Source of the DNA: Caulobacter sp.
Lineage (GTDB): Bacteria; Pseudomonadota; Alphaproteobacteria; Caulobacterales; Caulobacteraceae
Direction of reading: 5' to 3'
Length of the DNA stretch: 64,000 nt
Assembly: GCA_017744495.1 (NCBI GenBank)
Contig: JAGIBE010000144.1
Coordinates: forward strand, 20,420 to 84,419
Positions 46,395-50,406 of the stretch are shown here, piece after piece. The stretch's first letter is position 1, and every line of letters starts with the position of its first letter. A program made the position numbers and the translations under genes. The notes beneath the pieces are model-generated. The model saw nothing but the letters and a program-made list of their open reading frames with translations. It made no database searches and was not told the origin of the DNA.

Positions 46395-46835
46395 TTAGGC
46401 GGCGGCGTTCTCGGCGCGGGCGGCTTCCTCGGCCATGGCGCGGACCAGATCCAGGACCTGACGACGCACGCGGCCGCGGCCGATCTTCGGGAACACCTCG
46501 GCCAGTTCCAGACCCTCGGGCGTGGTCAGGAATTCCTGCACGATGCGCTCGGCCTGTTGACCGACCTCGTCGCCGTCCGAACCGTCCATCGGGTCGGCCA
46601 GGCCGTCGAAGAAGAACGACACCGGGACTTGCAGGGTCTTGGCGATCTCATACAGCTTGGAGGCGCTGACGCGGTTGGCGCCGCGCTCGTACTTCTGCAC
46701 CTGCTGGAAGGTCAGGCCCAGCGAGTCGGCGAGTTGCTCCTGGCTGACGCCCAGCAGCTTGCGGCGCATGCGGACACGGCCACCGACGTGGAGATCGACG
46801 GGATTAGGGCGCCGGCCCTCGGTTTCTTCGCTCAA
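46395..46835 (-). CDS. XRE-type helix-turn-helix transcriptional regulator
   Basis: VGGRVRMRRKLLGVSQEQLADSLGLTFQQVQKYERGANRVSASKLYEIAKTL; TTG start at LSEETEG favoured over the longer ORF. Confidence 0.9.
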   Translation of the reverse strand: MSEETEGRRPNPVDLHVGGRVRMRRKLLGVSQEQLADSLGLTFQQVQKYERGANRVSASKLYEIAKTLQVPVSFFFDGLADPMDGSDGDEVGQQAERIVQEFLTTPEGLELAEVFPKIGRGRVRRQVLDLVRAMAEEAARAENAAA

Positions 46836-47024
46836 GTTTCGCCTCCAAAGGTTGTCCGTGCACAATGCCACGTCCAACGCGTTCATGGAACGCTGCCGGG
46901 GCAAAGCGCGGCGTTAGGTCGCTGAGGTTTAGTTGAATAACCCCATGCTTGCGCTAACGCACGGACGTACACGCTCAGAGTGAGGCGATTTCCAGGCAAG
47001 ATTGTTTCGGCGGCGCAGCAAGCG

Positions 47025-47849
47025 CTAGGCGTTGAGTCGCGTCGCGGGCGGCGCGGCGTCGCGTTCAGCCCAGATTCGCCGAGCCTTGAGCGTTGTATCG
47101 TTGAGTCGATAGAGGGTTTCGGCCGCCAGCGCCTCGTCGCGGGCCGAGCCGGGATGAAATTGCGGCGTTTGGGCGCGGACCACCTGGCGCTGAACGTCCG
47201 CAAGCCCGCCGAACGCGCGCAGGTCCAGCTCGTCGATATGATAGCCCACGGGACCCTCGACGCCGATCGCCTCGCGGATCCGGTCCAGCAGGGCGTACGA
47301 GAGGGCGATCTCGGACCCGACGACGACGCCGAACGCGTAGGGGCGGGGCAGGCCCACCAGCCGCGTGTCGATCGGCGAGTTCATGATCCCCGGATACAGC
47401 GACATGTCGATCATGCCGACGAAGCGCTCGATCCCGTTGACCAGGGCCAACTCCATGGCCGCGGCCCAGACCTCGAACACCCGCAGGCCCCGGTTCGGAC
47501 CTTTTTTGGCGCGATAGAGCTCGGTGGTGAACAGCCGCGTGGCCTCCCACACCGTCACCCCCTTCTTGGGCGTCTCGTCCGGCGCGATCAGGTCCGGGAA
47601 CTTGTCGGCCAGCATGCAGCGCTGTTCGGTGGGATGCAGGCGCAGCCCCACCTCCAGCCGCATGGCCTCGTCGAAACCCAGCAGGTAGACGGCACGGGCG
47701 TCGTCGTAGTCATCGACCTCCCCGCCCTCCAGGACCACCAGGTCGATCCAGCCGTTCTTCTCGACGCACTGCTCGCGTCGCTGTTCGTGCATGGCCCACA
47801 GCTGGGGCCCGTAGAGGTGGCGGTTCTGCGACGTGACGACGTGGATCAT
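47025..47849 (-). CDS. Acyl-homoserine-lactone synthase (LuxI family)-like protein
   Basis: N-terminal MIHVVTSQNRHLYGPQLWAMHEQRREQCVEKNGW, EVDDYDDARAVYLLG, LRLHPTEQRCMLADKFPDLI, VWEATRLF; start at MIHVVTS. Confidence 0.82.
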   Translation of the reverse strand: MIHVVTSQNRHLYGPQLWAMHEQRREQCVEKNGWIDLVVLEGGEVDDYDDARAVYLLGFDEAMRLEVGLRLHPTEQRCMLADKFPDLIAPDETPKKGVTVWEATRLFTTELYRAKKGPNRGLRVFEVWAAAMELALVNGIERFVGMIDMSLYPGIMNSPIDTRLVGLPRPYAFGVVVGSEIALSYALLDRIREAIGVEGPVGYHIDELDLRAFGGLADVQRQVVRAQTPQFHPGSARDEALAAETLYRLNDTTLKARRIWAERDAAPPATRLNA

Positions 47850-47909: not shown

Positions 47910-47927
47910 ATAGGCCAAACGGCCTAT
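47910..47927. promoter_or_regulatory. Candidate operator palindrome between luxI-like and Mpo1-like genes
   Basis: ATAGGCC-AAAC-GGCCTAT, perfect 7-bp arms, in the divergent intergenic region. Confidence 0.4.
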
Positions 47928-47982: not shown

Positions 47983-48327
47983 ATGACCGCGAGTGATCAT
48001 CCGGCCCAGAAACCAGCCAAGGAAGGGGAGGGGCGCTACCGCACGTTCGCGGCGTTCTATCCGTTCTACCTGACCGAACACGTCAATCGGACCAGCCGGC
48101 GGCTGCACGTGATCGGCACGACCCTGGTCATCGCCGCCCTAGTCTGCGGCGTCCTGGTCGATTGGCGATTCTTCGTCGCCGCGCCCTTCGTCGGTTACGG
48201 CTTCGCCTGGGTGGGCCACTTCGTGTTCGAGAAGAACCGACCGGCCACGTTCAAGTACCCGCTCTACAGCCTGGCGGGCGATTTCCGGCTGTGGTTCGAG
48301 GTGGTGACGGGCAAGCGGTCCTTCTGA
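47983..48327 (+). CDS. DUF962/Mpo1-like membrane protein
   Basis: FAAFYPFYLTEHVNRTSRRLHVIGTTLVIA...VGYGFAWVGHFVFEKNRPATFKYPLYSLAGDFRLW. Confidence 0.9.
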   Translation: MTASDHPAQKPAKEGEGRYRTFAAFYPFYLTEHVNRTSRRLHVIGTTLVIAALVCGVLVDWRFFVAAPFVGYGFAWVGHFVFEKNRPATFKYPLYSLAGDFRLWFEVVTGKRSF

Positions 48328-48417: not shown

Positions 48418-50406
48418 ATGTCAGGCAAGCCGTATCAGCACGCGCCGGACGCGCCGTGGATCTTCCGGACCTATGCCGGCCATTCGACGGCCGAGAAATC
48501 CAACGCCCTCTATCGCGCCAACCTGGCCAAGGGCCAGACCGGCCTTTCCGTCGCCTTCGACCTGCCCACCCAGACCGGCTACGACGCCGACCACGTACTG
48601 GCGCGCGGCGAGGTGGGCAAGGTGGGCGTGCCGATCGCCCATCTGGGCGACATGCGGACCCTGTTCGACGGCATCCCGCTGGAACAGTCCAACACCTCCA
48701 TGACCATCAACGCCCCGGCCGCCTGGCTGCTGGCGCTGTATGTCGCGCTCGCGGACGAGCAGGGGGCCGACCGCAAGCTGCTGCAGGGCACGACCCAGAA
48801 CGACCTGATCAAGGAGTATCTGAGCCGGGGCACCTACATCTTCCCGCCGGAGCCGTCCCTGCGACTGATCGGCGACATGATCGCCTGGTGCTATCGCGAG
48901 GTCCCCAAGTGGAACCCGATGAACGTCTGCAGCTACCACCTGCAGGAGGCGGGGGCGACGCCGGAGCAGGAACTGGCCTTCGCCCTGGCCACGGCGATCA
49001 GCGTGCTCGACACCGTCAAGGCCGGCGGCCAGGTCCCCGACGAGGACTTCGAGATCGTCGCCTCGCGCATCAGCTTCTTCGTCAACGCTGGCGTGCGGTT
49101 CGTGACCGAGCTGTGCAAGATGCGGGCGTTCACCAAGCTCTGGGACCAGATCCTGCTGGAGCGCTATGGCGTGCAGGACAAGAAGGCCCGGCGGTTCCGC
49201 TATGGCGTGCAGGTCAACAGCCTGGGTCTGACCGAGCAGCAGCCCGAGAACAACGTCTACCGCATCCTGATCGAGGCCCTGGCCGTCACGCTGAGCAAGG
49301 ACGCCCGCTGCCGGGCCCTGCAGCTGCCGGCCTGGAACGAGGCCCTGGGCCTGCCGCGCCCGTTCGACCAGCAGTGGTCGCTGCGGCTGCAGCAGGTGCT
49401 GGCCTACGAGACTGACCTCCTGGAATACGAGGACCTGTTCGACGGCAGCCACGTGGTCGAGGCCAAGGTCGCCGAGTTGTCGAAGGGCGCGTTGGAGCAG
49501 TTGGCCCTGATCGACGAAATGGGCGGGGCCAGCAACGCCATCGACTACATGAAGACCGAGCTGGTGGCGTCCAACGCCGCGCGGGTTCGATCGGTCGAGA
49601 CCGGCGACCTGACCGTGGTCGGCGTCAACCGTTGGACCGATACCGAGGCTTCCCCGCTGGCGGCCGGCGGGAAGGCGATCGAGACGGTGGACCCGCTGCT
49701 GGAAGCCGGCGTGGTCGAACGGCTGAAGGCCTGGAAGGCCGCCCGCGATCCGGCGGTCGTCGAGGCCGCCTTGGCCCAATTGAAGGCTGCGGCCGTCGAT
49801 GGCCGAAATATCATGGAGCCCTCGATTTCCGCCGCCAAGGCCGGCGTCACCACCGGCGAGTGGGCTGGAGCCCTGCGCGAGGTGTTCGGCGAGTATCGCG
49901 GCCCCACCGGCGTGGCGGTGGTCGTCTCCACGGGCGAGGCCGAGGACGTCGAGGCGGTGAAGGCCGAGGTCGAGCGGGTGTCCAAGGTGCTGGGGCGCAC
50001 CCTGACCTATCTGGTCGGCAAGCCCGGGCTGGACGGCCACTCCAACGGCGCCGAGCAGATCGCCACCCGCGCCCGCGCCTGCGGCATGGAGGTGATCTAT
50101 GACGGCATCCGCTCGACGCCCGAGGAGATCGTCCGCCGCGCCAAGGAAGGCCGCGCCCATGTGGTGGGTCTGTCGATCCTGTCGGGCTCGCACCTGGACC
50201 TGGTGCAGGAGGTGATCCGCCTGATGCGCGCCGAGGGCCTTGGCCACATCCCGGTCGTGGCGGGCGGCATCATCCCCGACGGTGACGCCCTGATCCTCAA
50301 GCAGATGGGCGTGGCGCGGATCTACACGCCCAAGGACTTCAAGATCACGGAGATCATGGGAGATGTGGTGCGGTTGGTCGAGGCTGCGGCCCTGGCGGAG
50401 GCTTGA
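48418..50406 (+). CDS. Ethylmalonyl-CoA mutase-like (MeaA-type) B12-dependent mutase
   Basis: 662 aa single chain with mutase domain (IFRTYAGHSTAEKSNALYRANLAKGQTGLSVAFDLPTQTGYD) and C-terminal B12-binding-like domain (KPGLDGHSNGAEQIATRARACGMEVIYDGI). Confidence 0.9.
   Translation: MSGKPYQHAPDAPWIFRTYAGHSTAEKSNALYRANLAKGQTGLSVAFDLPTQTGYDADHVLARGEVGKVGVPIAHLGDMRTLFDGIPLEQSNTSMTINAPAAWLLALYVALADEQGADRKLLQGTTQNDLIKEYLSRGTYIFPPEPSLRLIGDMIAWCYREVPKWNPMNVCSYHLQEAGATPEQELAFALATAISVLDTVKAGGQVPDEDFEIVASRISFFVNAGVRFVTELCKMRAFTKLWDQILLERYGVQDKKARRFRYGVQVNSLGLTEQQPENNVYRILIEALAVTLSKDARCRALQLPAWNEALGLPRPFDQQWSLRLQQVLAYETDLLEYEDLFDGSHVVEAKVAELSKGALEQLALIDEMGGASNAIDYMKTELVASNAARVRSVETGDLTVVGVNRWTDTEASPLAAGGKAIETVDPLLEAGVVERLKAWKAARDPAVVEAALAQLKAAAVDGRNIMEPSISAAKAGVTTGEWAGALREVFGEYRGPTGVAVVVSTGEAEDVEAVKAEVERVSKVLGRTLTYLVGKPGLDGHSNGAEQIATRARACGMEVIYDGIRSTPEEIVRRAKEGRAHVVGLSILSGSHLDLVQEVIRLMRAEGLGHIPVVAGGIIPDGDALILKQMGVARIYTPKDFKITEIMGDVVRLVEAAALAEA

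Follow-up and report, generated by a model that had tools for sequence, protein, structure and literature searches.

Described acyl-homoserine-lactone (AHL) synthases that use acyl-CoA form one clade, whose members lack the basic residues found in the ACP-docking helix (PMC4234381). Their preference for acyl-CoA has been assigned to a Trp-Trp indole platform (W142/W143 in BjaI, W146/W147 in RpaI), and recognition of p-coumarate to Gln124 of RpaI (PMC8188788). Across the LuxI family, Arg24, Phe28, and Trp34 have been termed absolutely conserved (PMC3704786). Within Caulobacter, Table 1 of one paper lists for strain AP07 a single LuxI (PMI01_00487) and a single distant LuxR (PMI01_02945), with AHL activity not detected (ND) and the product undefined (PMC12306166). 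The AP07 genes are orthologs of those described below and likewise comprise one luxI and one unlinked luxR (locus L034, genome G016; luxI 84% identical, a single match each to PF00765 and PF03472). This pair is thus already in print, and where the paper lists it there is no mention of the residue at position 28, of an operator, or of linkage in sister species (PMC12306166).

A LuxI-type synthase with cysteine in the Phe28 column

We analyzed a stretch of 64,000 nucleotides (the window) from a draft Caulobacter genome of 290 contigs that is 85% complete. The region around its luxI-type gene contains the following features.

46395..46838, minus strand: XRE/Cro-type HTH regulator gene, downstream of luxI (PF01381, 53.5 bits)
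47025..47849, minus strand: luxI-type acyl-homoserine-lactone synthase gene, 274 aa (translation, PF00765, PDB sequence and fold matches, ortholog alignment)
47910..47927, no strand assigned: 18-bp inverted repeat, ATAGGCCGTTTGGCCTAT as read on the luxI strand, located 61-78 bp before the luxI start codon, candidate lux box
47983..48327, plus strand: Mpo1-like gene, divergent from luxI (PF06127, 125 bits; start codon inferred)
48418..50406, plus strand: methylmalonyl-CoA mutase-like gene (family F13; function named by inference from sequence)

The luxI frame translates into 274 aa and a stop without breaks, and the closest-matching public relatives are from Caulobacter. The Pfam profile PF00765 (Autoind_synth) matches residues 18-152 and scores 45.7 bits, above its cut-off of 24, while NCBIfam TraI models score far below their own cut-offs. 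By phmmer, the nearest solved structures are BjaI (1.6e-16) and RpaI (2.4e-16), along with MesI, TofI, and LasI. An AlphaFold model built from a 24-row ortholog alignment has moderate confidence (mean pLDDT 66.5, pTM 0.69; residues 30-49, adjoining the key segment, score low) and adopts a LuxI-type GNAT fold: its Foldseek PDB matches 1-12 are acyl-HSL synthases only, with BjaI first (E 1.5e-16), and the matching structures include BjaI, RpaI, MesI, TofI, LasI, and EsaI. The catalytic set is complete (Arg24, Trp34, Asp46 and Asp49 for D45/D48 of LuxI, Arg70, Glu102, and Arg105), so that all equivalents of the family residues Arg24, Trp34, Asp45, Asp48, Arg68, Glu97/101, and Arg100/104 are present. 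These results agree with the initial annotation, made from the letters of the window, which had named a LuxI-type synthase and pointed to Arg24, Trp34, the D..D pair, the LRLxPT Arg, and the WEATR Glu/Arg, all of which we found intact. The protein also has a conserved C-terminal extension at about residues 215-262 (window 47025-47180 region), which is restricted to its clade apart from a weak trace in two relatives.

The column of Phe28 is occupied by Cys28, four residues after Arg24 and six before Trp34. A hand alignment had suggested this earlier, and it is upheld by phmmer alignments with BjaI, RpaI, MesI, and TofI, where the other proteins have F, Y, or L, and by an alignment of 150 rows. 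The cysteine occurs in 24 of 24 aligned Caulobacter orthologs (73-92% identity) and in none of 126 other rows taken from the LuxI family and the alphaproteobacterial class (F 113, Y 8, L 3, gap 2). Its invariance among the 24 orthologs indicates that it is neither a sequence error nor decay. Phe28 is not strictly family-defining: the residue is Tyr in RpaI and MesI, and Y or L in 11 of the 126 survey rows. The nearest non-orthologs (L145 and L256) have Phe at this position, which dates the change to Cys to the origin of the Caulobacter clade. A disulfide or redox switch between Cys28 and Cys78 was considered and ruled out as an explanation, given that other LuxI proteins of the Caulobacteraceae combine Cys78 with Phe28.

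The displaced luxR and the inverted repeat upstream of luxI

No LuxR is encoded near luxI within the window, as the initial annotation had reported. A PF03472 search of the whole genome found LuxR proteins, the strong one on another contig.

C199:34150-34881 (locus L094:6151-6882): luxR, 243 aa, GTG start, read directly

This LuxR is 96% identical to that of the closest relative, has the W..Y........DP and later F.W residues typical of AHL-binding LuxR proteins, and is orthologous to the LuxR whose gene immediately precedes luxI in sister species. On a gene-order map from a simple custom ORF caller, which may miss small neighbors or misplace starts, most orthologous loci have luxR immediately upstream of luxI, in tandem, within the order TonB receptor, CBS/ATPase/receiver hybrid kinase, luxR, Mpo1-like (reversed), luxI, XRE, PilZ. 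The block at L037:170-5727 is an example from the species with linked genes: luxR comes after the genes for a TonB-dependent receptor and for a CBS/histidine-kinase-ATPase/receiver hybrid. The map does not contain the luxR of the window's genome, which was read from its contig.

In the subclade of the window (G000, G015, G016, G017, G019, G020, and G040), luxR lies away from luxI, and luxI-XRE-PilZ adjoins the Mpo1-like and methylmalonyl-CoA mutase-like genes. The displaced luxR of G016 and G040 retains the TonB receptor and kinase genes nearby. In the complete genome of G015, luxR at 425 kb and luxI at 902 kb share a 5.26-Mb contig (about 477 kb apart), so the separation there is real and not merely a contig break; in the 85% complete draft of the window's genome, luxI and luxR fall on separate contigs. 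The gene orders indicate that luxR was moved away from luxI by rearrangement in this subclade. The Mpo1-like gene marks the edge of the rearrangement and is kept beside the XRE gene in luxI-less relatives. Only in the unlinked subclade does the mutase-like gene neighbor luxI, and it is also found at empty sites; it appears to be a flanking marker of the luxI site and is not considered a part of the circuit. G022 has luxI and luxR on different contigs, and the luxR of G070 is partial.

Across 75 Caulobacter genomes, a luxI ortholog is present in 31, and a strong luxR of the matching kind (PF03472) in the same 31, while the other 44 have neither gene; luxR was confirmed by sequence in about two dozen genomes and called from score and position in the remainder, and within a single genus the genomes do not each count as independent evidence. 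The suggestion of an orphan synthase, which the initial annotation had tied to the absence of a LuxR elsewhere in the genome, fails because a LuxR of the cognate type is encoded on C199 and the two genes co-occur in 31 of 31 genomes; an orphan luxI is thus ruled out. One could instead suppose that the C199 protein is a true solo that responds to foreign signals and that luxI has no internal receptor. LuxR solos are common in proteobacteria, and the two genes are indeed unlinked in this subclade. We consider this highly improbable, given that the C199 LuxR is orthologous to the luxI-adjacent LuxR of sister species and that luxR is missing wherever luxI is missing (31 with both, 44 with neither, n = 75). 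An unlinked cognate partner is the reading that we follow below.

A near-identical inverted repeat precedes luxI in 25 of 25 loci read, approximately 60-85 bp before the start codon. Its core, AGGCCNTTYGGCCTAT, is found a single time in every one of the 31 genomes that have luxI and is absent from the remaining 44, so that luxI, luxR, and the repeat share one distribution. Part of this co-occurrence is trivial because the repeat belongs to the luxI promoter; the informative aspects are its strict conservation, its single copy per genome, and its persistence where luxR is unlinked. As an inverted repeat in a luxI promoter, the element at 47910-47927 has the makings of a lux box and is a candidate target of LuxR. 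A wider regulon was also considered. Across the genome, no further copy of the perfect repeat was seen, and looser AGGCC-N4-GGCCT sites number 13, close to the 9 of a reversed-pattern control; this possibility was rejected. A literature search confined to openly licensed papers found no account of an operator in this luxI promoter, nor of Cys28.

The nearest regulator to luxI is of XRE type and not a LuxR, as first annotated, and the repeat could in principle be its operator, with the XRE protein regulating luxI in place of LuxR. XRE proteins bind inverted repeats, and the gene lies directly downstream of luxI in nearly all loci read. However, XRE orthologs (85-99% identity) persist in many luxI-less genomes, none of which has the repeat, the family is multicopy (about 2-12 paralogs per Caulobacter genome), and luxI is tracked much more tightly by luxR than by XRE. 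We therefore regard the XRE protein as a very unlikely surrogate regulator and probably a resident neighbor outside the signaling pair, and retain LuxR as the candidate ligand of the repeat.

Loss, decay, and selection

Four relatives (G059, G032, G010, and G036) have the mutase-like, Mpo1-like, and XRE genes in the same order with no luxI between them, and a PF03472 search found no luxR in any of these genomes. Their XRE orthologs are 95-99% identical, and in a tree of flanking genes, with low support, the four are mixed among luxI-bearing relatives. Joint loss of the two unlinked genes is what would be expected if they function as a pair. The distance matrices of luxI and luxR are correlated (Mantel r 0.60, or 0.91 without G015), partly as a result of shared vertical descent. 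Pairs of intact luxI genes have dN/dS values (Nei-Gojobori) of 0.07-0.22 and pairs of luxR genes values of 0.06-0.15, whereas comparisons with G015 give about 0.44. These values indicate that the luxI of the window is under purifying selection.

Other states of the gene were also seen in the genus. The G015 copy (L101, G015:C1:901558-902364) is diverged, with WEATG for WEATR, Leu28, and an Asp-rich run, and still has an intact reading frame, the operator, and an unlinked luxR; it looks to be in decay. In G062 (L259:33-119, G062:C1), only the first 27-29 luxI codons are left before the sequence diverges, which marks the fragment as a remnant of gene loss. Some Caulobacter genomes encode other LuxI types (L065-L073, L241-L246) that are 24-36% identical and keep Phe28, several of them with a LuxR match nearby.

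The initial annotation had raised the possibility of lost activity, and the synthase might indeed have lost, or be losing, AHL synthesis, with the gene kept for another reason or as a relic. Replacement of a residue termed absolutely conserved (PMC3704786) would fit this, as would the lack of detected AHL activity in AP07 in the published table (PMC12306166), the decayed G015 copy (WEATG, Leu28, dN/dS about 0.44), and the 5' remnant in G062. The AP07 bioassay is weak evidence, because Pantoea YR343 is also ND in the same table (PMC12306166), and the negative result for AP07 fits a reporter-blind signal, a silent gene, or an inactive enzyme alike. Unlike the G015 and G062 copies, the window copy, like at least 23 orthologs, retains all other catalytic residues and a low dN/dS, and the conserved operator and luxR have been kept in step with luxI. 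Loss of function is thus unlikely for the window copy, and the enzyme is probably active.

Acyl donor, product, and significance

In a quick tree, the Caulobacter clade groups with BjaI, RpaI, and MesI (SH-aLRT 95 with 39 rows, 85 with 38 rows), apart from ACP users; the tree is midpoint-rooted, places TofI outside this group, and does not include LasI. The motifs described for either donor are both absent from the window LuxI. The column of LasI Arg154, which we read as position 9 of PMC4234381, is Asn157, nearly invariant among orthologs and without a conserved basic residue. The columns of the Trp-Trp platform hold Ser150 and Leu151, the column of the substrate-contacting Gln124 of RpaI holds Trp128, and the column of BjaI Trp103 (chain numbering) holds Ala103.

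BjaI of Bradyrhizobium (isovaleryl-CoA-dependent, PDB 5w8a), the top match in both sequence and fold and a member of the same tree clade, likewise lacks the basic residue of ACP users, with Glu in place of Asn157. It differs in having Phe28 and the indole platform where the Caulobacter protein has Cys28 and Ser150/Leu151, and Trp and Met where the latter has Ala103 and Trp128; the C-terminal extension is a further feature of the window LuxI. RpaI of Rhodopseudomonas (p-coumaroyl-HSL synthase, PDB 6wn0), from the same clade and about 27% identical over the aligned fold, has Tyr at position 28, Trp146/Trp147, and Gln124 instead of Cys28, Ser150/Leu151, and Trp128. The acyl-ACP-dependent synthases of the TraI/LasI type share PF00765 and a GNAT-like fold with the window LuxI, but match with lower scores and have Phe28, and their residue in the LasI Arg154 column is basic, in place of Asn157.

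Phylogeny therefore favors acyl-CoA as the probable donor. The clade-specific changes at acyl-pocket positions would fit an altered acyl group and make an uncommon acyl-HSL, a possibility raised in the initial annotation, a more plausible product. More tentatively, Phe28Cys, the rebuilt pocket (Trp-Trp lost, Trp128, Ala103), and the new C-terminal extension could together yield an undescribed acyl-HSL that standard reporters miss, which we regard as possible rather than expected.

Considering all lines of evidence, we find it likely that the locus encodes an active acyl-HSL synthase of the Caulobacter clade, carrying Cys28, with an unlinked cognate LuxR and a candidate operator at 47910-47927. 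The substrates of such an enzyme would be SAM and an acyl thioester, most probably an acyl-CoA whose acyl group is uncommon, and its product an acyl-HSL. The signal would be sensed by the LuxR that is encoded elsewhere in the genome and next to luxI in sister species, and signal-bound LuxR may bind the repeat and control luxI itself, be it positively or negatively. In our reading, luxI, luxR, and the repeat make up a complete LuxI/LuxR circuit whose genes are split.

Caulobacter is among the main models in which the bacterial cell cycle is studied, and little has been published on its AHL signaling, as far as the openly licensed literature that we searched shows. Of 75 species-level genomes, 31 now offer a defined synthase, a receptor, and a candidate operator, and natural losses together with a decayed copy can serve as controls. 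The Cys28 clade offers a test of how strictly Phe28 is required in LuxI proteins, and a lone luxI in a window or on a contig need not mean an orphan.
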